Positions 5,175-33,112 of a DNA stretch of 39,616 nt are shown in pieces (within the stretch, counting starts at the first letter, position 1; every line of letters begins with the position of its first letter). The stretch spans positions 1-39,616 of the IMG/VR virus record IMGVR_UViG_3300025118_000047. One strand, written 5' to 3'. This DNA is from a virus. Below the pieces are notes generated by a model that was given only the letters and a program-made list of their open reading frames with translations, was not told where the DNA came from and searched no databases. Both the position numbers and the translations under genes were made by a program.

Positions 5175-6920
5175 TTACAGGTCACGTATAATTACTAGAC
5201 CATACATATCGGGGCGCACCATCTGCTTGGCGTATCGCGTCATGACACCTTTACGGGGCACGAAGTCTTCAACACCAAAGATAGTAGGCGTAGTCTGTAG
5301 CGGCACATACGGCGCATAGACATATCCACTCTCCAGGAAGCTACTTCCACGTCGGCCAACTAGGACCAAGTTACGTACGAAATAGGGATCGACAATAACG
5401 TCGAACTTCTTAGACAGTGAACCAACCTTAACGGCACCAATCTCACCCTTGTCACTATCAGCGGTTACGTTTGCACGGAAACCAGCGGTGAACTCAAGGA
5501 TGTTGGCAACTTCGGGTCCGCAGACGACAAAGTTGGCAGCACCACGGAGAGTCTTCCGGTGGATCTGAGCTGACACATCGTTGATTGCTTCAACGAGAGT
5601 CTCGTACCACTCGCTCACGTTACCAGTGAAATCCGGGGGACCACTAGAGTTAGAACGTGCGACACCAGTCGCGGCAACCACGAACTGACCAGGACTACGC
5701 GACCAATACCGAGTATCAGCCGTTGCACCCTTGATGAGATCTGTGAGGATCTCTTGGTCAATTTCGAGAGCGATCTGCTCAGACAGAATCTGAGTTAACT
5801 CGACCTCGGCATCAAGGTTGTGGTAGGCATTGAGATCTTGTCCCAATTCCGGAGTCCACTTAGCCTTGAGCTTCTTGGTGATAGCAGTGACAGCCACGGA
5901 ATCGATTTTGATGTCGATTTCGGGGATGTAGTCGCTACCTTCAAGAGACCAGGGAGTGGCACCAACAACGGAGCCGAGGGCGCCGCCAGTGGCGAACACA
6001 TCTCGCCTCGGCCAAGTAACTGTAAGCGCTCCACCGGTGATATCGCTCATAATCCCAGAGAGATTACGACCGGTATCGTTAGTAAACACGACGTTCAGCG
6101 TAGCACCAGTTCCACGAGCACTGCCCGAGAAAGACGTCAAGCGACGCTGATGGAACGTACCGTTAGCAAGAGCGCCAGCATTCGCATCGAGCGAATTGCT
6201 GCCTGTGCCGATAGTAAGCGCCACTAGATCATCATAGTTAAAGTTAGCCAAGCCGGATGAGGTGATACTCATCACACAAACTACAGTAGAACCGGAAACA
6301 AGATCCGGATCATACTGACAAAGTTGATCAAGTAGATTACTCGTCGAACCGAACGTACCACTAACCTGGTCGCCGCCGGCAACATTCGCAAGATAAATAA
6401 GTTGCGAACCAGTTGGCGAGGAGTAACCGTTGTTCAGGGCATAAGGACCCTGCTGCGGGGTACTACCCGAGTTAAGGAGCGCACCACTAATGATTTGCGC
6501 GCCAACACGTCCCTGACCATAAATGGAAGTATCGAGGGGGTTACCCAATCGAGGCTCACCAGCATTCCCCCCACCAATATTGGCGGAGAAAACAAAGTCA
6601 AGGAAGAAGATGAGGCCCGAGGGCAAACTCATCGGCTGAACACTAACGAGTTCGTTAGCAATCAAAGCGCCGAATACACGGCGAACGAGGGGGAACGCAA
6701 CAGCTGCGAATCCCTCAACATCTCCAACCTGCATGGATGAAGTTTCACGGAGTAGCTCTTTCGCTTGGTTCTCAAGCAAACGTGCCATTCCGTTCCGAAC
6801 GTGATCGTTGTGAAGACCCTCAAGAAGTCCGGTCTGCTCCCATTTTCCAATGAGTGCAGCCCCTTCCTGAGCGAGGTCACGATTAACGATACCTTCAGTT
6901 AGTTTTTTAACAATAGACAT
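5175..6920 (-). CDS. Major capsid protein (T4 gp23-like)
   Basis: This 581-aa protein forms the capsid shell. It follows the scaffold gene directly and has a strong AGGAGG ribosome site at 6930-6936. The N-terminal 65 or so residues are helical (VRNGMARLLENQAKELLRE) and end in a Leu-x-Glu site at about residue 59, matching the T4 gp21 cleavage rule. The delta-domain is therefore probably removed during maturation. The mature part then reads AFPLVRRVFGALIANELVSVQPM, the counterpart of the T4 gp23 segment VMGMVRRAIPNLIAFDICGVQPM. The C-terminus has LVGRRGSSFLESGYVYAPYVPL and ends VRPDMYGLVIIRDL, also typical of gp23. T4 gp23 is 521 aa, so this one carries about 60 extra residues. A hairpin terminator follows. 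Confidence 0.92.
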   Translation of the reverse strand: MSIVKKLTEGIVNRDLAQEGAALIGKWEQTGLLEGLHNDHVRNGMARLLENQAKELLRETSSMQVGDVEGFAAVAFPLVRRVFGALIANELVSVQPMSLPSGLIFFLDFVFSANIGGGNAGEPRLGNPLDTSIYGQGRVGAQIISGALLNSGSTPQQGPYALNNGYSSPTGSQLIYLANVAGGDQVSGTFGSTSNLLDQLCQYDPDLVSGSTVVCVMSITSSGLANFNYDDLVALTIGTGSNSLDANAGALANGTFHQRRLTSFSGSARGTGATLNVVFTNDTGRNLSGIMSDITGGALTVTWPRRDVFATGGALGSVVGATPWSLEGSDYIPEIDIKIDSVAVTAITKKLKAKWTPELGQDLNAYHNLDAEVELTQILSEQIALEIDQEILTDLIKGATADTRYWSRSPGQFVVAATGVARSNSSGPPDFTGNVSEWYETLVEAINDVSAQIHRKTLRGAANFVVCGPEVANILEFTAGFRANVTADSDKGEIGAVKVGSLSKKFDVIVDPYFVRNLVLVGRRGSSFLESGYVYAPYVPLQTTPTIFGVEDFVPRKGVMTRYAKQMVRPDMYGLVIIRDL

Positions 6921-9044: not shown

Positions 9045-9107
9045 TTAGTCATTAGACAACTCTACATATGTGCTATCCGGATCAGTGTTTTTCTCTTTAT
9101 AAGTCAT
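9045..9107 (-). pseudogene. Remnant of a fibre C-terminus (20-codon fragment)
   Basis: Between the 321-aa and 249-aa genes a 20-codon frame starts at the ATG at 9107 and ends at the TAA at 9045-9047. It encodes MTYKEKNTDPDSTYVELSND. The core DPDSTYVEL matches the last residues of the 1105-aa fibre (NPDSTYIELA). At DNA level 9058-9082 matches 11087-11111 at 21 of 25 positions. It looks like the tail end of a second fibre copy left behind by duplication or recombination. Whether it is translated is unknown. Confidence 0.55.
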
Positions 9108-10062
9108 GACGCGGTCTCCTAAGTACGCGCATTTTAGTAAAAGTTGTTACAATGTTCATGGTTGCGCCTGCTAAGTGATAATACACCCGGGTGCTTAAAC
9201 ATGCTTTTAGGTTAGATGGTCTAAGATCATAGGAAGGAGATGCATCACTCGTTGAGTTCGACGATCGAGCTGGGGGCGGGTCCCCACCGGGCATATTATC
9301 TATCAAATAGGAATATTTCGATTGCCTGTGTGCGCTAGCGCGGAACTCCGTTGTCGACAAAGGGTCGGGAAATTCTGTGATATCGGCGCCAGCAGAACCA
9401 GTTGTGGCGCCGGATCCAATAAAAGTGCATGCCGGCAACACAACCATCTCGTAAAAAGTTGGGAAAAGTGCGCCGGCGGTATCCTCACCATAGAGCGGGC
9501 CCGCGGGGGCAGCTTCGTAATCACCTGTGCGCATATACATTGCCGTATGGTCAGAATCGCCATTATTATACATTCCCATTGAACACCAATTTCCTGTGGT
9601 GTCCTCCGGAGGTTCAGGCGAGACGGCGGGATCTGGGCCATAGCCACCATCTGTCATGACCAAAAAACTACCTCCATATTGTCCGTCACCGGTTGAGTAG
9701 GATCCCCCAAAAGAGCTTGTTAAAAGCACCTGAATGCAAATGGTATCGGAAGCATCATAGTCAGAAACAATATCGCCCACAGATGCTGAAAGGAGAGGGC
9801 AGCTCATCCATCTGTAGTACCAATTTGCGTGCGGGTCGGTATCGGCACCATCAACTTTGATTTTTAAGCCAGTACCATTAATAAGTTGCATACTTGTACC
9901 ATAATATTCTAAATTGCGGCATGTCCAGTCGACGCCCTCCCATTCATAAGTTTCGCCCTCTGTAAAGCTTTTCGTGCCGACATGAGATGTAAAATCAAAT
10001 TCTTTAACGACTTCCCAGGGTTGAGTCAGCGGGGCACCTCCGAATCCCTTAACCTTGGCCAT
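9097..10062 (-). CDS. Putative receptor-binding / fibre-associated protein, paralogue of its upstream neighbour
   Basis: This 321-aa protein shares its plan with the preceding 343-aa protein. Near the N-terminus is WEVVKEFDFT, then an aromatic block (EWEGVDWTCRNLEYYGTSMQ against FGGVNWVCQNLSTYGG), a GTGLKI segment, and CPLLSASVGDIVS followed by CIQVLL. Both end in TFTKMRVLRR or TFTKLRILRR. This is consistent with a beta-sandwich adhesin duplicated in tandem, after which the copies diverged, mainly in the middle third. It begins inside the end of the 343-aa gene (14-base overlap). No enzyme motif is seen. A role in host recognition is inferred from its position directly after the fibre. Confidence 0.5.
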   Translation of the reverse strand: MAKVKGFGGAPLTQPWEVVKEFDFTSHVGTKSFTEGETYEWEGVDWTCRNLEYYGTSMQLINGTGLKIKVDGADTDPHANWYYRWMSCPLLSASVGDIVSDYDASDTICIQVLLTSSFGGSYSTGDGQYGGSFLVMTDGGYGPDPAVSPEPPEDTTGNWCSMGMYNNGDSDHTAMYMRTGDYEAAPAGPLYGEDTAGALFPTFYEMVVLPACTFIGSGATTGSAGADITEFPDPLSTTEFRASAHRQSKYSYLIDNMPGGDPPPARSSNSTSDASPSYDLRPSNLKACLSTRVYYHLAGATMNIVTTFTKMRVLRRPRHDL

Positions 10063-11080
10063 TTGGCAACCTCCTTAAGATACGCAATTTAGTAAACGTA
10101 GCCGTTATACCTGCGGATATATAGAAGGGGGTGCCGGGACCGTACGAGCCCGGGATGCCGTTCCACAATACAATATTCGCAGACATAGCTACATATGAAT
10201 TAGAATGCCGCAGCGCGTATGAAGGACTTACGCCTGGATTGTCAGCAATACTCTGCTGTACCTGCCACGACATAGTTCCGGAAGAACGGTAAGTCATCGT
10301 AAGAGGCCTCGGGAAATTTGTAATAGTTTTGCCGGTTGAACTCGTATGCGCCATTGAAGTTAGATAGCCGGCTCCTGGAGCGGCGAGTATTTCCATACAC
10401 CGTGGCCATTTTGTAGAAGAGCCACCGATTTGAACGTCGTCGACGGGGTCGCCGGCTGTGGCGTGGACGGTGCTCCCGCCGAGGCGGGTCGACCAACTAG
10501 CAGTATGTGGAGTTATCGACGAACTCAGCCACGGGGCGGCTGTACAGAAAAGCGCACTGGTGGCGGTACCGTAACTTCCATCAGAAATTATAAGGCGCTG
10601 CTGTAGATTATTAGCATCCTGGGTAGTTCCATCATACGGGTTCCCGGGGTTGCTTACGGTTCGTCCAACATTATGAAAAGTTGTGGGTGCGAGTAGCACT
10701 TGATAACAAAGAGTGTCTTCGGCAGAGAACGATACGCCGGCGGCTGTGGCAATATCTGATACTTGAGCCTGTAAAAGAGGGGTGGTCATAGTTCTCCAGT
10801 AAAAATTACTATCGGCGGCGGAAGAGCCAGTAATAAAAATTTGGAGTCCCGTTCCCTCAATAAATTTTATATATGAATCGACGCCCCCATAAGTTGATAG
10901 GTTTTGGCATACCCAGTTGACGCCCCCAAATGCTTCAGCAACTCCATCAGCAAATGTATGGTCTGACGCTTTTGTAAAATCAAATTCTTTAACAACTTCC
11001 CAGTCGCTAATAACCTCAACTCCTGAAAGAGTTTTTATATCATAAGTATCAACTCCTGATACTTTAAAACTGGTGGCCAT
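10049..11080 (-). CDS. Putative receptor-binding / fibre-associated protein
   Basis: This 343-aa protein starts in a TAATG overlap with the stop of the 1105-aa fibre, so the two are co-translated. The N-terminal lead (FKVSGVDTYDIKTLSGVEV) is shared in style with the 249-aa protein, and the body (from WEVVKEFDFTKASDHTF onward) is shared with the 321-aa protein. It is rich in Ser, Thr, Gly and aromatic residues, lacks signal or membrane segments, and ends TFTKLRILRRLPNGQG. The closest plausible role is an adhesin or fibre-tip protein that assembles on the preceding fibre. The exact family is not recognised. Confidence 0.5.
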   Translation of the reverse strand: MATSFKVSGVDTYDIKTLSGVEVISDWEVVKEFDFTKASDHTFADGVAEAFGGVNWVCQNLSTYGGVDSYIKFIEGTGLQIFITGSSAADSNFYWRTMTTPLLQAQVSDIATAAGVSFSAEDTLCYQVLLAPTTFHNVGRTVSNPGNPYDGTTQDANNLQQRLIISDGSYGTATSALFCTAAPWLSSSITPHTASWSTRLGGSTVHATAGDPVDDVQIGGSSTKWPRCMEILAAPGAGYLTSMAHTSSTGKTITNFPRPLTMTYRSSGTMSWQVQQSIADNPGVSPSYALRHSNSYVAMSANIVLWNGIPGSYGPGTPFYISAGITATFTKLRILRRLPNGQG

Positions 11081-25746: not shown

Positions 25747-26109
25747 CTATTCTAAGCCTTTTTGTTTCGTTTGGGCAGCACTCGTAGCAACCTGCTGAGC
25801 GGTGCCCTTGCTAGCTCCCACCTTCTTCAAGAAGTCAGCAATCCCAGCTTTTAGCGCTGCCGCCGGAATTCCTTTGCCCTTAAGGGTGGTTATGAGCGCA
25901 GCACTCACATCTTCCGCGGACTGTTGGCCTCCAACTTGGCCGGCTTTCGCCATGCGTTGTGTGCGAGCGCTCTGCTTTGGGGCTGCAGCGGGGGGTGGAG
26001 CTTCTGCTCCGAGGGCTTCGCCAAACATCTCGGCTGCTTCGTCATCGGTCAAAATGACTTCTAGCTCCTCTTTAATTATTTCTCGTAATCTAGCTCTTGA
26101 TAACTTCAT
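25747..26109 (-). CDS. Small protein with an SRxxLRxIIKEEL N-terminus, possible capsid cargo
   Basis: This 120-aa protein begins MKLSRARLREIIKEELEVIL, an amphipathic basic-acidic helix common at the start of marine phage proteins. It contains Ile-Lys-Glu, which fits the (L/I)xE cleavage rule of the T4-type prohead protease. An Ala/Pro/Gln-rich linker follows (EALGAEAPPPAAAPKQSA), then a helical second half (VSAALITTLKGKGIPAAALK). The ATG overlaps the stop of the Mre11-Rad50 gene (ATGA). A capsid targeting peptide is an inference; no function is known. Confidence 0.5.
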   Translation of the reverse strand: MKLSRARLREIIKEELEVILTDDEAAEMFGEALGAEAPPPAAAPKQSARTQRMAKAGQVGGQQSAEDVSAALITTLKGKGIPAAALKAGIADFLKKVGASKGTAQQVATSAAQTKQKGLE

Positions 26110-29100
26110 TGATTCACCCTCGCATATCCGCTCTTTTTGTCAATCACGATTTGTGTATCCACACAATCTTTTAAGGACTCCAGGTGTGAAATTAAAATCA
26201 CAGTCTTAAAGTACATCTTAATTAGTTGGAGAATGCGAATAAAGCCTTCCATATTTTCTGAGTCTAGTGCAGTCCCCGGCTCGTCGAGAATAAAAATGTC
26301 GCCCTTGGGTAGAGACGAAACCGATAGAAGTGCCAATCGAATAGCCATTGAAGCTATCGTCTTCTCGGCACCCGAGCCCATTTCCAAAGGTCGTGGCTCA
26401 TGACGCGGGTGTTTAATAAAGAGGTTGAGTCGCTTTCCATCGTCATCAAAGAAGATTTCAAACTCAACAATATTTGCAAGAACCTTGGCCACCTCTTCAT
26501 TAATAACAGGTAGTTGTTTCTTGATGATATCGTAAGCAATGCCATTAGAGTGCATACACTGAAGGTACAAATCATAGGCTGCATATTCTTGCTGAATATC
26601 CTGTTGCTCTTTTTTCTGCTTTTTAATATTCTCCAGCTTTTGTTCCAAGGAGCCATTCTCTTTGTAAAGTTCAAGTATCTGTTCGTTACACTCTTCACAG
26701 TGTGTGGAAATCGTTTTGATCTCTTTCTGAGCAGCAGTACGTTGCTTTACCAAATAAGCAAAATTCTCGATGGCCTCTTTGTTTTCTTCGTAGGTAAATA
26801 TATCAGTCTCTAGAGAATTCAACTCGTTCTGTAAAGTGAGGATTTTAGAGTTGGCTCTCTCAAATTCTAGTTGTGTGTCTTTTAGTAAAGCAACCACATT
26901 CCCGTATTCGACCAGAGCCTCATTATATTTATTTATATGAAGACTAATCTGATCAGGACTTAACGAATCAATATATTCTTTTATCTCCTTAGCATTCTCT
27001 AACTTAGAAAGAATCTCTCCCTGCAGTACTGGTACGTGGTTTTTTACCGAATATGCATCTTTAATAAATTTACAGGTAGGAAAATTGTCCCCACAAGGAA
27101 TATTATCGAGAAGGTGCAACTTCTTGTTTTTATTATTATATTCTTTTTGCAGCGATTTAGCCAAAGCAACCAGAGTCTCCAAATCTTTAGACTGTTCATC
27201 AATTTCGTTCTGCGTAGCATTAAGGTCGTTGATATCCGTCTCGTCGAGGCCTTTCAAAAGGCTATCTCTAGTTGTCTTAAGTGCGCCGATAGCTTCGTAG
27301 TGGGTATCCTTCTTTTCCTTTTGGCCTTCTATATCCGCAAGAAGCTGCTCTTTCTTTTCGCGTACATCTAGAATATCAATAATATCGTTGGGAATAGATT
27401 CAATCGTCTCATTAATCTGAAGGAGTTCTATTTCCTTGGCCTTTAAGGATTGCTTAGTGGTTTCACAAATTTCTTTTTGTGTCTCCAACTCTTCTGTGTT
27501 GTCACCCATATCGCGTTTCACAATATCCAATTCCTCATCAAACTGACGATTGGCTGAACGCCGAATTAAAGCCTTCAGGTCGGCGGAGTCTTCTTTAGCA
27601 TATCGAAACTTTTTCTCGAATACTTCAAGATCCAAAAACTTTGCAAGAATTTCCTTACGACGAGTAGAGCCCTCCTTAATGAATTGCAATGAATCCAGCT
27701 GTGACGACATGGACGTCAATAGAAAATCTTCGGACGTTCCTAAGTTCTTACGAATGTTGGCATCCGTCTGAATCCGACTGACGCCATTAAGACTCGTTGT
27801 CTCGTCTAGTACGGGATCGTAGACATTAAATTCTAGATCGGTCTTGGCTTCTAAAGTCTCCTCACCTTTCAGTCTCTTTATATATTTCTCTGAACTTCTG
27901 TCGATAGAATAAACCTTTGAGCCGATAGTAATTTCAACCGAGCCTTTACAACTCTCTCTGTTCTGGTTTATAATATTCAGGTTCTTGCGCTCATTCTTTG
28001 AGGTAGTATTAAACATTGTGTAGAGCAAACCATCAATGATACTAGATTTACCCGAGAAATTCTTACCGAAGATGCCAACGATTCCATTTAGATTTTCAAA
28101 ATCTACCTTGTTGTTCTTCCCATAGTTAAAGAGGTTGTCCCACTCAAACGACTTCAACTTCCAATTAACATTGCGAGCTACATCCTCATTCTCCTCGGCA
28201 ATCGTATTGTACTTTTGGTTAAGTGCGAACACGCGCTCTATAAGATCGTCACCAACCTCATAGCCTTCAAGATATTCTCGCATAAGCTTTTCTTGAACTG
28301 TGACATCTCGCAAATTTTCCTTGAGGAATCCAGTGCCGTTAAGATCCACACTCCCACGCGAGCCTGCCGCTCGATTTAGAAAGGTTACTGACTCCGGCTT
28401 AAAGCGATGTTTGGCGATATCAACTGCGCGCTTCATGACATTTAGAGGCAAGTTGTTGTTGGACACCAAGCGGAGCCGTGCAGTCGGGGGTACTATAAGC
28501 CCCTTGGGCATTCGTCCCTTCGGCGTGAGTTCAATTGTGATAAAGGGTTTCGGATTTCGGAACTGGAGAGGACGAACCTTGAAGGTCTCTTTGTCTTCGA
28601 TTTCCCAAATTAGAATTCCCTTGTCATTTGTCTCGCCAAAATTCTGCTGAATCGTGGATCCACAGTACCACACGCGACCTTCGGGGTCAAGATATTGACG
28701 CTTGTGAATGTCTCCAAGCATCGCAAAATCGTGCTCAGAGAAAATCCGAAGCTCATCTTCACCATGTTCCATCTTCCACCCCACATCGGTAGTGCAATTA
28801 GAGATAGAACCGTGATAAAGGGCGATATTGATGCGCTCTGGGTCAGATGGGCTCTCCCAATTGTCTCGATCGAACACTGAAAGTACGTTAATCGCCGTAG
28901 AGGGCCCCAGAAGCGTCTCTCCTGAATTCTTGAGCAAATGTAATGTCGGCATATCTAAAGCCTGGACGATGGGCGTTATCGCGTCCTGACGGGACGAGTT
29001 TTTTAAATTTCCATCGTGATTACCCAGAATAATGTAGGTGGGGGCAATATTCGCCAAGTTGGCGAAGAATTCAGAACACAGTTCAACAAACTCTGGTGAG

Positions 29101-29255
29101 ATCTGTGTTTTGGTGTGTGCGATGTCGCCGCAGTGAATAATATAGTCTACTTTTTCCTCACGTAAAGTTTCGTATAATTGTTCAAAGATTATCCTGTACT
29201 CGTAATGGTACTTTAGATTCTTAATGTGCGTATCCGCAATGTGTGCAAATTTCAA
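26106..29255 (-). CDS. Single-chain Mre11-Rad50 (SbcD-SbcC; T4 gp47-gp46) fusion
   Basis: One uninterrupted 1049-aa frame carries both halves of the recombination nuclease. The N-terminal phosphoesterase shows all metal motifs: ADTH (D8, H10), HCGD (D44), GNHD (78-81), YHGS (H148) and GDIH (181-184). From about residue 363 comes an SMC-type ATPase: Walker A GKNFSGKSS (397-405), Q519 in the Q-loop region, a long coiled coil (about 550-900), the signature EMGSGAEKTIASM (958-970), Walker B IFILDEPGTALD (987-998) and the H-switch histidine at 1024. The coiled-coil apex at residues 720-730 has CGDNFPTC in place of the usual CxxC hook. It should process DNA ends for recombination-dependent replication. 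It follows the primase and RuvC genes. Confidence 0.93.
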   Translation of the reverse strand: MKFAHIADTHIKNLKYHYEYRIIFEQLYETLREEKVDYIIHCGDIAHTKTQISPEFVELCSEFFANLANIAPTYIILGNHDGNLKNSSRQDAITPIVQALDMPTLHLLKNSGETLLGPSTAINVLSVFDRDNWESPSDPERINIALYHGSISNCTTDVGWKMEHGEDELRIFSEHDFAMLGDIHKRQYLDPEGRVWYCGSTIQQNFGETNDKGILIWEIEDKETFKVRPLQFRNPKPFITIELTPKGRMPKGLIVPPTARLRLVSNNNLPLNVMKRAVDIAKHRFKPESVTFLNRAAGSRGSVDLNGTGFLKENLRDVTVQEKLMREYLEGYEVGDDLIERVFALNQKYNTIAEENEDVARNVNWKLKSFEWDNLFNYGKNNKVDFENLNGIVGIFGKNFSGKSSIIDGLLYTMFNTTSKNERKNLNIINQNRESCKGSVEITIGSKVYSIDRSSEKYIKRLKGEETLEAKTDLEFNVYDPVLDETTSLNGVSRIQTDANIRKNLGTSEDFLLTSMSSQLDSLQFIKEGSTRRKEILAKFLDLEVFEKKFRYAKEDSADLKALIRRSANRQFDEELDIVKRDMGDNTEELETQKEICETTKQSLKAKEIELLQINETIESIPNDIIDILDVREKKEQLLADIEGQKEKKDTHYEAIGALKTTRDSLLKGLDETDINDLNATQNEIDEQSKDLETLVALAKSLQKEYNNKNKKLHLLDNIPCGDNFPTCKFIKDAYSVKNHVPVLQGEILSKLENAKEIKEYIDSLSPDQISLHINKYNEALVEYGNVVALLKDTQLEFERANSKILTLQNELNSLETDIFTYEENKEAIENFAYLVKQRTAAQKEIKTISTHCEECNEQILELYKENGSLEQKLENIKKQKKEQQDIQQEYAAYDLYLQCMHSNGIAYDIIKKQLPVINEEVAKVLANIVEFEIFFDDDGKRLNLFIKHPRHEPRPLEMGSGAEKTIASMAIRLALLSVSSLPKGDIFILDEPGTALDSENMEGFIRILQLIKMYFKTVILISHLESLKDCVDTQIVIDKKSGYARVNQ

Positions 29256-29263
29256 AATTTCTC

Positions 29264-30196
29264 CTATAAGTTTTTGAGGCTAGCAACCAAGAAATTATCA
29301 AAATCGATTTTCTTGGCGTTTTGCTTTGCTCTCTGGAAGGTCTCTGTTGGCATTGCACCAACATCTTCATAGTCACCAACGTCTACCTTCCAGACCTCGA
29401 TATCGAATTTTAATAGAGTTTCGATAATTCTCATTTCTTTCTTCCAGGCATCTGGGTCCAACGCAACATACACAGCCGAATCCTCTTTGACGATTCTACT
29501 CAACAATTTTGACTCATCGTTGAGAGTGGATCCTAAAAGAGGGATTGAATTACGGCCGGCCTTTATTGCGTCGAAGACACCTTCTACCAATACTATATCA
29601 GAAGACCAATCAATAAACAAGTCATTAAATACAATATTTTTGCTCACCGGTGGGTTTTTGTATTTGGGATAATACTGTCGGTCATATGAGCGAGAAACAA
29701 AATAGTTCACGTTTCCATCGTCATCAAACGAAGGAATGATTATGCGCCCTTCGTATTCTCCCTCATGACAATAGCCCAATTTCCACCACACTAGATCGCG
29801 TTTGGTAACCCCGCGCTTCTTCAAATAATTGCGCGCAGCAAAACCAGTGGGGGGAATATCTCTGTTGGCAAGAGAGACAAATTCTTTAGGAAGATCAATT
29901 ACCTGCTTGACTTCAACACTCTCCCCAAATATATCTTCTAGCTGGGTATAATCTACCTGGGCAGTAAGAGCACTCCACTCTTTCTTCTGGTGATGATCAC
30001 CAAACTTACGAATGATTCGATAGACGTTTTTTCCGCGTGTATCACATACCCAACATTTGAAGTAACCTTTGTCAAGGTTCACCGACATCTTCTTCTTGTG
30101 GTGCCCACAATAGGGACAACTAAAAAGGTACTCCTCGCGTGAACGATAGTAACTTCCCAGAACAGATGATAAGATTTTAAGCTTCTTTTGTTTCAC
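29264..30196 (-). CDS. DnaG-type DNA primase
   Basis: This 310-aa protein makes RNA primers for replication. An N-terminal zinc ribbon has C27-P-Y-C30 and C48-W-V-C51. The middle (TGFAARNYLKKRGVTKRDL, then GRIIIPSFDDDGNVNYFVSR) matches the region leading into the primase core. The Toprim motifs follow: IVLVEGVFDAI (E205) and YVALDPDA (D247, D249). The zinc-finger sequence GYFKCWVCDTRGKNVYRIIR is typical. Its ATG lies 20 bases inside the end of the RuvC-like gene. No helicase domain is attached and none is seen nearby, so the partner helicase must lie outside the window. Confidence 0.88.
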   Translation of the reverse strand: MKQKKLKILSSVLGSYYRSREEYLFSCPYCGHHKKKMSVNLDKGYFKCWVCDTRGKNVYRIIRKFGDHHQKKEWSALTAQVDYTQLEDIFGESVEVKQVIDLPKEFVSLANRDIPPTGFAARNYLKKRGVTKRDLVWWKLGYCHEGEYEGRIIIPSFDDDGNVNYFVSRSYDRQYYPKYKNPPVSKNIVFNDLFIDWSSDIVLVEGVFDAIKAGRNSIPLLGSTLNDESKLLSRIVKEDSAVYVALDPDAWKKEMRIIETLLKFDIEVWKVDVGDYEDVGAMPTETFQRAKQNAKKIDFDNFLVASLKNL

Positions 30197-30698
30197 TCAA
30201 CCAACCGGCCCGGGCAACCACATAGCTGTCCGCGCGGTCTGCATAGCCTGCTTTTGGATTACCATATCTTGTATATTCTACACCAAAGTCACCCACGTTG
30301 TCAAGAACAAAATTCATAACAACGGCTTTTGCCTTCTGGCCTCGGGGTACTTTAATCCCAACTGCTTTGCGCGCAGAGCTGGCGCCAATATAGTTAGGTT
30401 CCCCACTAAACATATTATAGCACAACCACGAAACAATGCCATTGATTTTTGAAAGTAATGAAAGAGTCTGAGCAGATGAGAATCCGGACCGGAAAGACTG
30501 CAAGGATTGTTCTATATAGACGCGTTCTATTTGGTGCTCTTTGGCTATTGCTAAAAGCTGTGAGTTGATAATGCACACTTTCTTAAAAAAGTTTTTCTCT
30601 TTGCGTAAATCAATATGGTTACACACTATAATTTCCCCTTCGTCATCCAGTATAGTGTAACCGGTAATACTGGTGCTAATATCTAAACCTAATATCAT
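30177..30698 (-). CDS. RuvC-like Holliday junction resolvase
   Basis: This 173-aa protein has the RNase H-like fold motifs of the RuvC family: MILGLDISTSITGYTI with D6, RVYIEQSLQSF with E63, and YADRADSYVVARAG with D154 and D157. All acidic metal ligands appear present. It should cut four-way or branched DNA; in a phage this clears branches before packaging, a job done by the unrelated gp49 in T4. It starts the replication/recombination set, is joined to primase by overlap, and follows the structural genes after a 39-base gap. The usual family length is about 160-190 aa. Confidence 0.85.
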   Translation of the reverse strand: MILGLDISTSITGYTILDDEGEIIVCNHIDLRKEKNFFKKVCIINSQLLAIAKEHQIERVYIEQSLQSFRSGFSSAQTLSLLSKINGIVSWLCYNMFSGEPNYIGASSARKAVGIKVPRGQKAKAVVMNFVLDNVGDFGVEYTRYGNPKAGYADRADSYVVARAGWLSETKEA

Positions 30699-30737: not shown

Positions 30738-31991
30738 CTATATGTCTAATTTTATCTTAAATGTGAAATCTCTTTCAGCAGTTTTTCTAATCGGTGTGGC
30801 TGGCTTAGCGATTGCAATAAGATTTTGGTTCTCATCGTAGATACCAATTTTAGAAATAAAAGTTGTCTTCTCGAAAGATCCGGTGGGATCTGCATAAGAC
30901 GAACTCACAATATTTTTAATTGGAATTTGGGGGCCCTCCAAGTAGGCGCGGCTTCCAGTGGAAACTTGACTAGAGGTGGTGAAAGTTCTATAGGAGGGAT
31001 TATTAGAATGATTTAGTTGTGCTTTGGGACACGTAGCAAACATCGTCAATGTTTGAATCGTATTCGTTCCGGAGAGTGTCATTAAATAAGACGAGTTAAG
31101 ACTCCCCGTTGTGTAAGGGATCGTCTCGCCACCAAAATGAATCCATCGAGGGTTGTCAGCGGTACCCGTAACATATGTATCGGTGGAGTTGTTTAAAGCT
31201 GCAGCGCCAGTTAAGATCAAAATCCCTTCGTTATATAACGCAACTCCCACTACGCTTCCGCTCTGGGGGCCGACTGTTTCTATAAGCTCTCCGTTTTGAT
31301 ATTTGTCTTGCGCGCGGCCTGCTAGGGCACCGGTGAAATAAAACTTTAAATCGATCGTGCCCTTTTTAATTTCATCCCCATAAAAAATACTAGGAATACT
31401 AACGAGGCCAAGTTTAATATTGTCAAAGTCTCTTTGAAACAACGATGAAGAATATTGGTAGTTCGGGCTCAAAATAGTATAATAATTCAACGTGTTTTTA
31501 AGGGCGCGCAAGTGAGTAACCGATCCGGACGTGACCGTGGGAGGGCCCGAGTCGTTGAACACTACTGAAGATGCGGTATATCTTTTAGTTGCGGCTGCGT
31601 AATATTCTTTGGAGATGGTCGCAACCAGAGGGTATACGCTTTTGATGGGCGCGCCCAAAGCGGAAGCGGCGAACTGCGCGTTGCTGGTGGTTCGCATCGC
31701 CATCCTGGTGCCGTTTTTAATTACAAAGGGATAGATTAGCCCGTTGTCTGCGATATTCATATCAGACGGCCCGATCGAGCGACCGGTACTGGCCGACACC
31801 CGGTCGACGTTTAGTTCATATAAAGAAACATTGCCAGGTGAAGTCAGACGAATCGGCGCTGCGAAAGCACCAGAGATCGTGGGAGTATCGTTATAAAAAG
31901 AACTCCCGCTATAGATTAAAAATTTTACCGCTGGATATGTGGTTAGCGGATTGACGTATACGTCGTTATCCTTGAACTTATACCAAGACAT
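30738..31991 (-). CDS. Virion structural protein, paralogue of the preceding 370-aa protein
   Basis: This 417-aa protein begins MSWYKFKDNDVYVNPLTTYP. It shares three landmarks with the 370-aa gene just upstream. These are YGDEIKKGTIDLKFYF (residues about 200-215) against SKDEIKKGSFTLELG, AQLNHSNNPSYRTF against GEFNYSSNPTYLSA, and the C-terminal block LIAIAKPATPIRKTAERDFT ending KIKLDI against LLAVAKLSEPLKKDPSNEFT ending RVRLDY. The NYSSNPTY element is recurrent in structural proteins of marine T4-like phages. The protein is rich in Ser, Thr and Tyr with no membrane part. A baseplate or tail role is likely, but the exact place in the particle is unknown. Confidence 0.6.
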   Translation of the reverse strand: MSWYKFKDNDVYVNPLTTYPAVKFLIYSGSSFYNDTPTISGAFAAPIRLTSPGNVSLYELNVDRVSASTGRSIGPSDMNIADNGLIYPFVIKNGTRMAMRTTSNAQFAASALGAPIKSVYPLVATISKEYYAAATKRYTASSVVFNDSGPPTVTSGSVTHLRALKNTLNYYTILSPNYQYSSSLFQRDFDNIKLGLVSIPSIFYGDEIKKGTIDLKFYFTGALAGRAQDKYQNGELIETVGPQSGSVVGVALYNEGILILTGAAALNNSTDTYVTGTADNPRWIHFGGETIPYTTGSLNSSYLMTLSGTNTIQTLTMFATCPKAQLNHSNNPSYRTFTTSSQVSTGSRAYLEGPQIPIKNIVSSSYADPTGSFEKTTFISKIGIYDENQNLIAIAKPATPIRKTAERDFTFKIKLDI

Positions 31992-31999
31992 TCCATGTC

Positions 32000-33112
32000 C
32001 TAGTAATCCAAACGTACCCGAACTGTAAATTCATTAGACGGATCCTTCTTCAATGGTTCCGATAGTTTTGCAACGGCCAGCAATTCGTTGGCATCGGAAT
32101 AAAGTCCAACGGTTGTGGCGTAAGTCACGGGCACATCGTAAGCGTTGTTCTTGACCACCAACTTGCTCGCGCTTAGATAGGTGGGGTTGGAAGAATAATT
32201 AAATTCCCCGTGATTGGCTCTACAGAAATAGATTGTTGAGTTCAGTTCCGTAGTGTTGTTAAACGAAATATTTGAAATTCGACTTCGTAGGCGATCACAG
32301 GCACCCGTAATTGAAGAGCCCGTAAGCAGAGCATCGATAGTATCACCGGATGAATTCATTACACACGAAGCCGACAACACGCCACCAGTTCGGGTCGCTG
32401 AATCACTACCAGAAGCAAAGACAGAGGCAGATAAAACTGCAATTCCCGCTTGGTAATAAAGAAGACCGACGGGCATTTGTGTCGAACCCGTAATTCCATT
32501 TAATGGACGGCCGTCAGCTGACAAGTGCGGAATTCCTGAACTATTGGATACATAGAGTAGTCCATATTCGCCGGCCGGTGAATTAATTTTATAGTTGTTT
32601 GAACCATTGGTGTCCTTAACAGTAACTCTTTTTCTAAAAGGCGTGGCGGAAGCCGTATTAACTCCCAATTCCAATGTAAAGCTTCCCTTTTTAATTTCGT
32701 CCTTGGAGATGAGGCGCGCGAAGTTTATAAAGAAGGCGGCTTCATTTTTGGTTCCCCCTGTAAGGTCTCCGTCCTTATCAAACAAACGGACTTTGTTGGT
32801 CTCATCAAAGCCGACTAGGACTTGGGCCATTTCGTTGTACATATTAATCTTTTTGGCATTCTGCGTACTTGCGGCGCCGGAAAGGCTCGACGTGGCCGCA
32901 TAGCCAACAGCCAGATCAAAAATATGGTTAGCTGAGGAGCTTAAATATGGATAGTCATAAACTGACTGGAAAATTCCGTGGGCATAGTTCTTAATATTAT
33001 TATCGCTATAGGTGCCCGAAATAATGGTACCCGTAATAGGAATAGCCTCGTGTAACAGACTTCGCGTTGAAACGCTGTCATTGGGGTCTAAAATTTTAAA
33101 TGTGGTGCTCAT
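32000..33112 (-). CDS. Virion structural protein with NYSSNPTY motif
   Basis: This 370-aa protein starts MSTTFKILDPNDSVSTRSLL and includes HGIFQSVYDYPYLSSSANHI, then MYNEMAQVLVGFDETNKVRL, and FARLISKDEIKKGSFTLELG. Its last third has CRANHGEFNYSSNPTYLSAS and the C-terminal LLAVAKLSEPLKKDPSNEFT. It is the partner of the 417-aa paralogue downstream and very probably arose with it by tandem duplication. The genes are eight bases apart. A structural (baseplate or tail) role is inferred from the family and from the flanking virion genes. Confidence 0.6.
   Translation of the reverse strand: MSTTFKILDPNDSVSTRSLLHEAIPITGTIISGTYSDNNIKNYAHGIFQSVYDYPYLSSSANHIFDLAVGYAATSSLSGAASTQNAKKINMYNEMAQVLVGFDETNKVRLFDKDGDLTGGTKNEAAFFINFARLISKDEIKKGSFTLELGVNTASATPFRKRVTVKDTNGSNNYKINSPAGEYGLLYVSNSSGIPHLSADGRPLNGITGSTQMPVGLLYYQAGIAVLSASVFASGSDSATRTGGVLSASCVMNSSGDTIDALLTGSSITGACDRLRSRISNISFNNTTELNSTIYFCRANHGEFNYSSNPTYLSASKLVVKNNAYDVPVTYATTVGLYSDANELLAVAKLSEPLKKDPSNEFTVRVRLDY

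Follow-up and report, generated by a model that had tools for sequence, protein, structure and literature searches.

A conserved Mre11-Rad50 fusion gene next to a primase gene in an uncultivated T4-like phage

Introduction

Mre11-Rad50 (MR) is a universal machine for the repair of DNA breaks. Whether one phage gene can carry both halves of this machine, and whether such a gene would serve the phage as the usual pair of genes does, are the questions raised by a locus in the window, by which we mean the whole 39,616-nt stretch of DNA analysed here (IMG/VR record IMGVR_UViG_3300025118_000047), a virus record whose genes for terminase, portal, capsid and tail are T4-like. In T4, cyanophages, RaK2 and others, gp47 and gp46 generally come from separate genes. 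An earlier note on this DNA, which pointed out the fused frame, could not say whether such fusions had been described in phages. They were described in 2011, when Yoshida, Claverie and Ogata reported a Mre11/Rad50 fusion in Mimivirus R555 and in twelve other proteins, one of them from Bacillus phage 0305phi8-36 (PMC3175470). The same authors predicted that R555-like ocean sequences are phage-borne, partly from primases on the same scaffolds (PMC3175470). Beyond that paper, a search of the literature on phage fusions found nothing relevant: the Far-T4 paper (PMC4360716) mentions neither gp46/gp47 nor a fusion, and a jumbo-phage review describes SbcC and SbcD as partners that are nearly universal, with no reference to a fusion in the passages found (PMC7824862). 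The architecture is therefore already known, and fusions of this kind occur in many other phages and in giant viruses; our analysis confirms that the present one is real and conserved.

Results

The fused gene occupies 26106..29255 on the minus strand and encodes 1049 aa, as indicated by the open frame, Pfam and PHROG matches and conservation. The coordinates in the earlier note, which gave no strand, are exact. Translation starts at a TTG codon at 29255, with AGGAG 5 bases upstream, and the stop overlaps the following ORF (120 aa; 25747..26109, minus strand) by 4 bases; this ORF could be assigned to no family, and no counterpart was detected in the related loci searched. IMG/VR, when scanned, yielded 125 relatives of the fusion, and the best 80 of these were kept. 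These viral relatives share 48-71% identity with the window protein, 53 of them are essentially full length, and all the catalytic residues tested are invariant among them.

The nuclease half, with its capping domain, comprises residues 1-295 (28371..29255, minus strand), as delimited by VIA-align and conservation. Residues 2-243 match Pfam Metallophos (2e-13) and the PHROG SbcD-like family (1.5e-30). The model of residues 1-295 aligns by VIA-align with Staphylococcus aureus SbcD (7dog; Z 24.7, 275 aligned, 3.2 A) and Escherichia coli SbcD (4lty; Z 23.6), and the nuclease and capping-domain fold is accordingly present in the predicted structure. The metal ligands are D8, H10, D44, N79, H148, D182 and H184. 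All five phosphoesterase motifs (D8, H10; D44; N79-H80-D81; H148; H184) are present and invariant, with the ligands conserved in every row covering each site (54-75 of 54-75 sequences), and H47 of the GDxxH motif is found in 62/62 relatives. Asp182, present in 75/75 relatives, matches His206 of Pyrococcus furiosus Mre11 and turns the usual GHxH into GDIH; the set of metal ligands is thus not entirely canonical. With this one correction, the earlier placing of the motifs at residues 8-184 and 397-1024 is right. The replacement of a metal-ligand histidine by Asp182 could change or weaken the nuclease.

The Rad50/SbcC half extends over residues 365-1049 (26109..28163, minus strand), on the evidence of alignment, AlphaFold2, VIA-align and conservation. 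Residues 346-1048 match the PHROG SbcC-like family (3e-50), and the model of residues 365-1049 aligns with the E. coli SbcC head (7yzo_D; Z 30.8), residue 1 of SbcC falling on window residue 365. Walker A (397-404), the Q-loop (Q519), the signature (958-964), Walker B (986-992) and the His switch (H1024) are invariant in 80 sequences. The ATPase head is split by coiled-coil arms at about 530-718 and 729-927, with a tip near 720-728. The hook at this tip is unusual: the canonical C-x2-C zinc hook, which occurs in other fused groups and in most split Rad50 proteins, is absent from the window protein, and C721-x6-C728 (27072..27095, minus strand) stands in its place. Conservation in the viral relatives supports this assignment (C721 in 80/80, C728 in 79/80; the spacing is x6, and x7 in a few). 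Since the separate-chain SbcC of a Moorella phage is likewise wide-spaced (C-x7-C), the wide hook is a variant that does not exclude the protein from the Rad50/SbcC family. To judge from the sequences, the CX6C hook would be a minor new point of the marine clade.

The surroundings of the gene are those of replication. A DNA primase gene (29264..30196, minus strand; phrog_47, 5.7e-45) lies directly upstream of the fusion in the same operon, and a gene for a RuvC-like Holliday junction resolvase (30177..30698, minus strand; phrog_159, 6e-9) lies upstream of the primase. The gene order RuvC-primase-MR-terminase-portal is retained in most related loci, and the primase adjoins the fusion across the window clade and in the Microcystis phage Mel-JY01 group. 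The portal protein is nearest to those of Mel-JY01, the Flavobacterium immuto phages, LR756508 and RM378, which points to the Far-T4 region described in PMC4360716. The best reading of the lineage is thus an uncultivated Far-T4-like phage with its MR gene in a RuvC-primase-MR cassette. A nearest-DNA search with the cassette among cultured phages gave no match, and no polymerase or UvsX was identified in the 39,616-nt window. Among ten related contigs (112-194 kb), all had one strong SbcC-like match and nine a single SbcD-like one, each at the fusion; in the remaining contig, G010, nothing SbcD-like passed the cut-off, yet the alignment of its fused protein extends over the Mre11 part. The only extra SbcD- or SbcC-like matches in these contigs are two weak coiled-coil ones.

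Elsewhere in the window, two neighbouring ORFs (9097-10062 and 10049-11080) both carry the motif WEVVKEFDFT at the start and also resemble each other at the C terminus; they are tandem tail-protein paralogues. Upstream of the RuvC gene, the ORFs at 30738-31991 and 32000-33112 cross-match in related loci; no family was found for them, and they are paralogue-like and perhaps tail proteins.

The analysis shows what the two domains are, that their active sites are intact, that the gene is single-copy and that it lies among replication genes. With a probability of about 0.87, it encodes the sole Mre11-Rad50 (SbcCD) complex with which the phage processes DNA ends, in one chain and likely with a gp46/47-like part in recombination-dependent replication. 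We infer its assembly, activity and role as follows. Two chains would dimerise into the usual M2R2 assembly, in which the nuclease would be held on the coiled-coil base by a helix-loop-helix, as with separate-chain complexes, and ATP binding and hydrolysis would gate the nuclease. The nuclease would trim double-strand ends, and the resulting 3' single strands would invade and prime recombination-dependent replication; this role is the most likely one by analogy with T4 gp46/47. The fusion itself would tidy up a known operon at the genetic level and bring no new activity.

An alternative to which we give a small share of the probability is that the protein has diverged in function: rather than resecting ends as T4 gp46/47 does, it would mainly act as an endonuclease, tether DNA or be directed at the DNA of the host. 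The conservation of D182 and of C721 and C728 given above shows that Asp182 and the C-x6-C hook are both fixed features of the clade, and R555 carries the same Asp substitution (PMC3175470). Against this, all other catalytic and ATPase residues are invariant, the gene is the sole MR copy and adjoins those for primase and RuvC, and the separate-chain VspSw_1 protein also has Asp at the His206 position.

In the AlphaFold2 model of the fusion (mean pLDDT 81.7; pTM only 0.50, so that the packing of the domains is tentative), the nuclease and its capping domain (1-295) are followed by residues 296-311, modelled with low confidence, by helices at 318-332 and 336-355, and by Rad50 from residue 364, whose long helices run out to the tip ahead of the second half of the ATPase head; mean pLDDT is about 73-91 across residues 310-360. 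In the model and in the alignment with split Mre11 C termini, the two predicted helices (28191..28304, minus strand) occupy the place of the Rad50-binding helix-loop-helix of Mre11, and the two-helix region is conserved across the fused family. Alignment, AlphaFold2 and VIA-align leave a short junction at residues 356-364 (28164..28190, minus strand), so that about 9 residues separate the last helix from the Rad50 start at residue 365. In the joint alignment each separate-chain Rad50 begins at window residue 362-365, which, together with the position of SbcC residue 1, indicates that two genes were joined almost flush. The Rad50-binding helix-loop-helix is thus predicted to be kept at the junction. 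A profile comparison of the helix region with T4 and cyanophage gp47 and E. coli SbcD was suggestive but not significant, and we therefore only infer the homology and the docking of helices 318-355. The earlier note correctly took the gene for a true Mre11-Rad50 fusion in a phage, which fixes 1:1 stoichiometry, and went on to propose that a covalent linker (about residues 320-365) replaces the C-terminal helices of Mre11. That residues 305-372 resemble T4-type helices only weakly in sequence speaks for that proposal, but two confident helices are predicted right there and are conserved in the fused family, and the linker shrinks to the few junction residues. The AlphaFold2 model gives no support to a loss of the helices, and we consider the replacement very improbable.

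The frame is open across residues 300-400 in 80/80 of the viral loci kept (the best 80 of 125), all on independent contigs, and this open junction, together with the invariant catalytic residues, indicates an old, selected architecture and no artefact of a single contig. That assembly or sequencing error fused two neighbouring genes, as the origin of the window from a single metagenomic contig and the interruption of the gene in some relatives (an inserted endonuclease-like ORF in LR756508, a frame change in locus L106) might suggest, is ruled out for all practical purposes by these independent loci and by the fusions in complete genomes of cultivated phages.

Discussion

Single uninterrupted fused frames are present in at least 11 cultivated phages: Microcystis phage Mel-JY01, Tenacibaculum phages pT24 and PTm1, Chryseobacterium phage MA9V-1, Sphingomonas phage PAU, Rhizobium phage RHph_Y65, Xanthomonas phage XacN1, Acinetobacter phage Ab1-TPeters, Vibrio phage 1.031.O, Cobetia phage Carin-5 and Thermus phage phiLo; the huge-phage genome LR756501 has one as well. 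Most of the fusions in cultivated phages are annotated as something else, and database names for one half ('SbcC-like', 'SbcD-like', 'metallo-phosphoesterase') in many fused phage genes have hidden the architecture. The search for other one-chain proteins proposed in the earlier note thus returned many, and the common architecture that would speak against novelty is largely what we found.

In a tree of 33 rows, made up of fused and split proteins, the window sits in a fused clade of 19 rows (100/99), and 24 fused rows are joined with moderate support (87/92). The XacN1 fusion stands beside the split RaK2 gp47/gp46 (100/99), a placement that is the same in Mre11-only and Rad50-only trees. An AU test rejects one clade, and with it a single origin, for all phage fusions (p 6e-40), because XacN1 groups with split RaK2. 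XacN1 ORF305 resembles the window protein in being a single Mre11-Rad50 chain (1099 aa), and its sister position to the split RaK2 proteins indicates a fusion independent of that in the window. The tree thus requires at least two fusion events, and the XacN1/RaK2 pair shows that the gp47-gp46 operon turned into a fusion more than once.

The window protein shares its two domains with T4 gp47/gp46 and their cyanophage homologues, in which gp47 lies upstream of gp46, and the window carries T4-like virion genes, as does the T4 group. In contrast to the window, the T4 and cyanophage proteins are encoded by two genes, which small ORFs often separate, have GDxxD and GHxH motifs and stand apart in the tree. 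The proteins of pT24/PTm1, MA9V-1, PAU (gp288) and LR756501 are single chains with the same domain order and belong to the same fused clade as the window (100/99), but are 1200-1330 aa in length, with longer arms and, in those checked, a C-x2-C hook. No primase match was found beside the scanned copies in this group. Mel-JY01 WWT39521.1 is, like the window protein, a full-length fusion (30% identity over residues 5-1048). The Mel-JY01 and LR756508 genes have a primase just upstream and accompany a related portal protein; unlike the window, they encode a C-x2-C hook. In three loci of the Mel-JY01 group (L087, L090, L094), long ORFs (908-1326 aa) lie directly downstream of the fusion.

The likeness to R555, which we know from its published description, is considerable. 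R555 has GDxxH and an Asp replacing His206, and most of the published fusions retain the helix-loop-helix region, with a predicted linker of 9-12 residues (PMC3175470). The window protein agrees with R555 in the Mre11-first single chain, GDxxH and Asp-for-His206, and with R555-type proteins in the short junction after a helix-loop-helix that is predicted to be retained and in coming from aquatic viruses, on scaffolds with phage primases. It differs from R555 in belonging to a tailed T4-like phage, in length (1049 against 1351 aa) and in its C-x6-C hook. When the model was compared with a library of viral structures, giant-virus proteins of the R555 type ranked highest, namely those of Tupanvirus (E 1.4e-59), Harvfovirus, Yasminevirus, Terrestrivirus and Catovirus. 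The window and its relatives closely fit the 2011 prediction of phage-borne R555-like genes. That prediction tied metagenome sequences to phages via short scaffolds only; what is new here is the genome context, since R555-type fusions are sited directly on contigs that also encode a portal, a terminase and a capsid of T4-like type. Tentatively, and at rather less than even odds, the R555-type fusions that ocean metagenomes have yielded since 2011 may have their chief natural reservoir in the Far-T4-like marine lineage, the gene may have passed from such phages to giant viruses or in the opposite direction, and the distinct C-x6-C hook of the marine clade may still dimerise the arms. When giant-virus DNA relatives were sought via the LR756501-group alignment, none was recognised among 20 loci, most of which were already found members of that fused group. 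For structural work, the fused chain also offers the convenience of an MR enzyme encoded by a single gene.

A scan of cellular genomes for fusions gave 15 loci, nearly all on MAG contigs and many with window-type phage neighbours; the one named cellular match, in an Ewingella genome, aligned over only 73 residues. A WOR-3 MAG chromosome (CP070664.1) contains a 685-aa frame that is 64% identical to the window protein over residues 2-626 and that adjoins window-type primase, RuvC and tail genes within the 2.8-Mb 'chromosome' and represents a prophage or a chimeric assembly.

In LR756508.1 (2944-7169), a 305-aa ORF breaks the fused gene just past the active-site motif GDIHKRQ and is flanked by exon-like parts on both sides; its cysteines are zinc-finger-like, and it probably encodes a homing endonuclease. 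Two intact fusions, in loci L035 (about 6180-6290) and L036, have an extra 25-30 residues or so after GDIHK (..EKDLDKYLEDGWEIVEENKI..), at the same site; this stretch resembles the end of the first part in LR756508 (..EDELEKYLNSGWKLDEN..) and is possibly a scar of the same element. In L106 (3304-6545), the fusion is split into frames of 224 and 860 aa at about the site of the LR756508 interruption, by a frame change with only some 100 additional bases. In Yersinia phage YerA41 (1405-4442 of its locus), a fused-type gene is broken near the C-terminal ATPase half, into frames of 827 and 185 aa.
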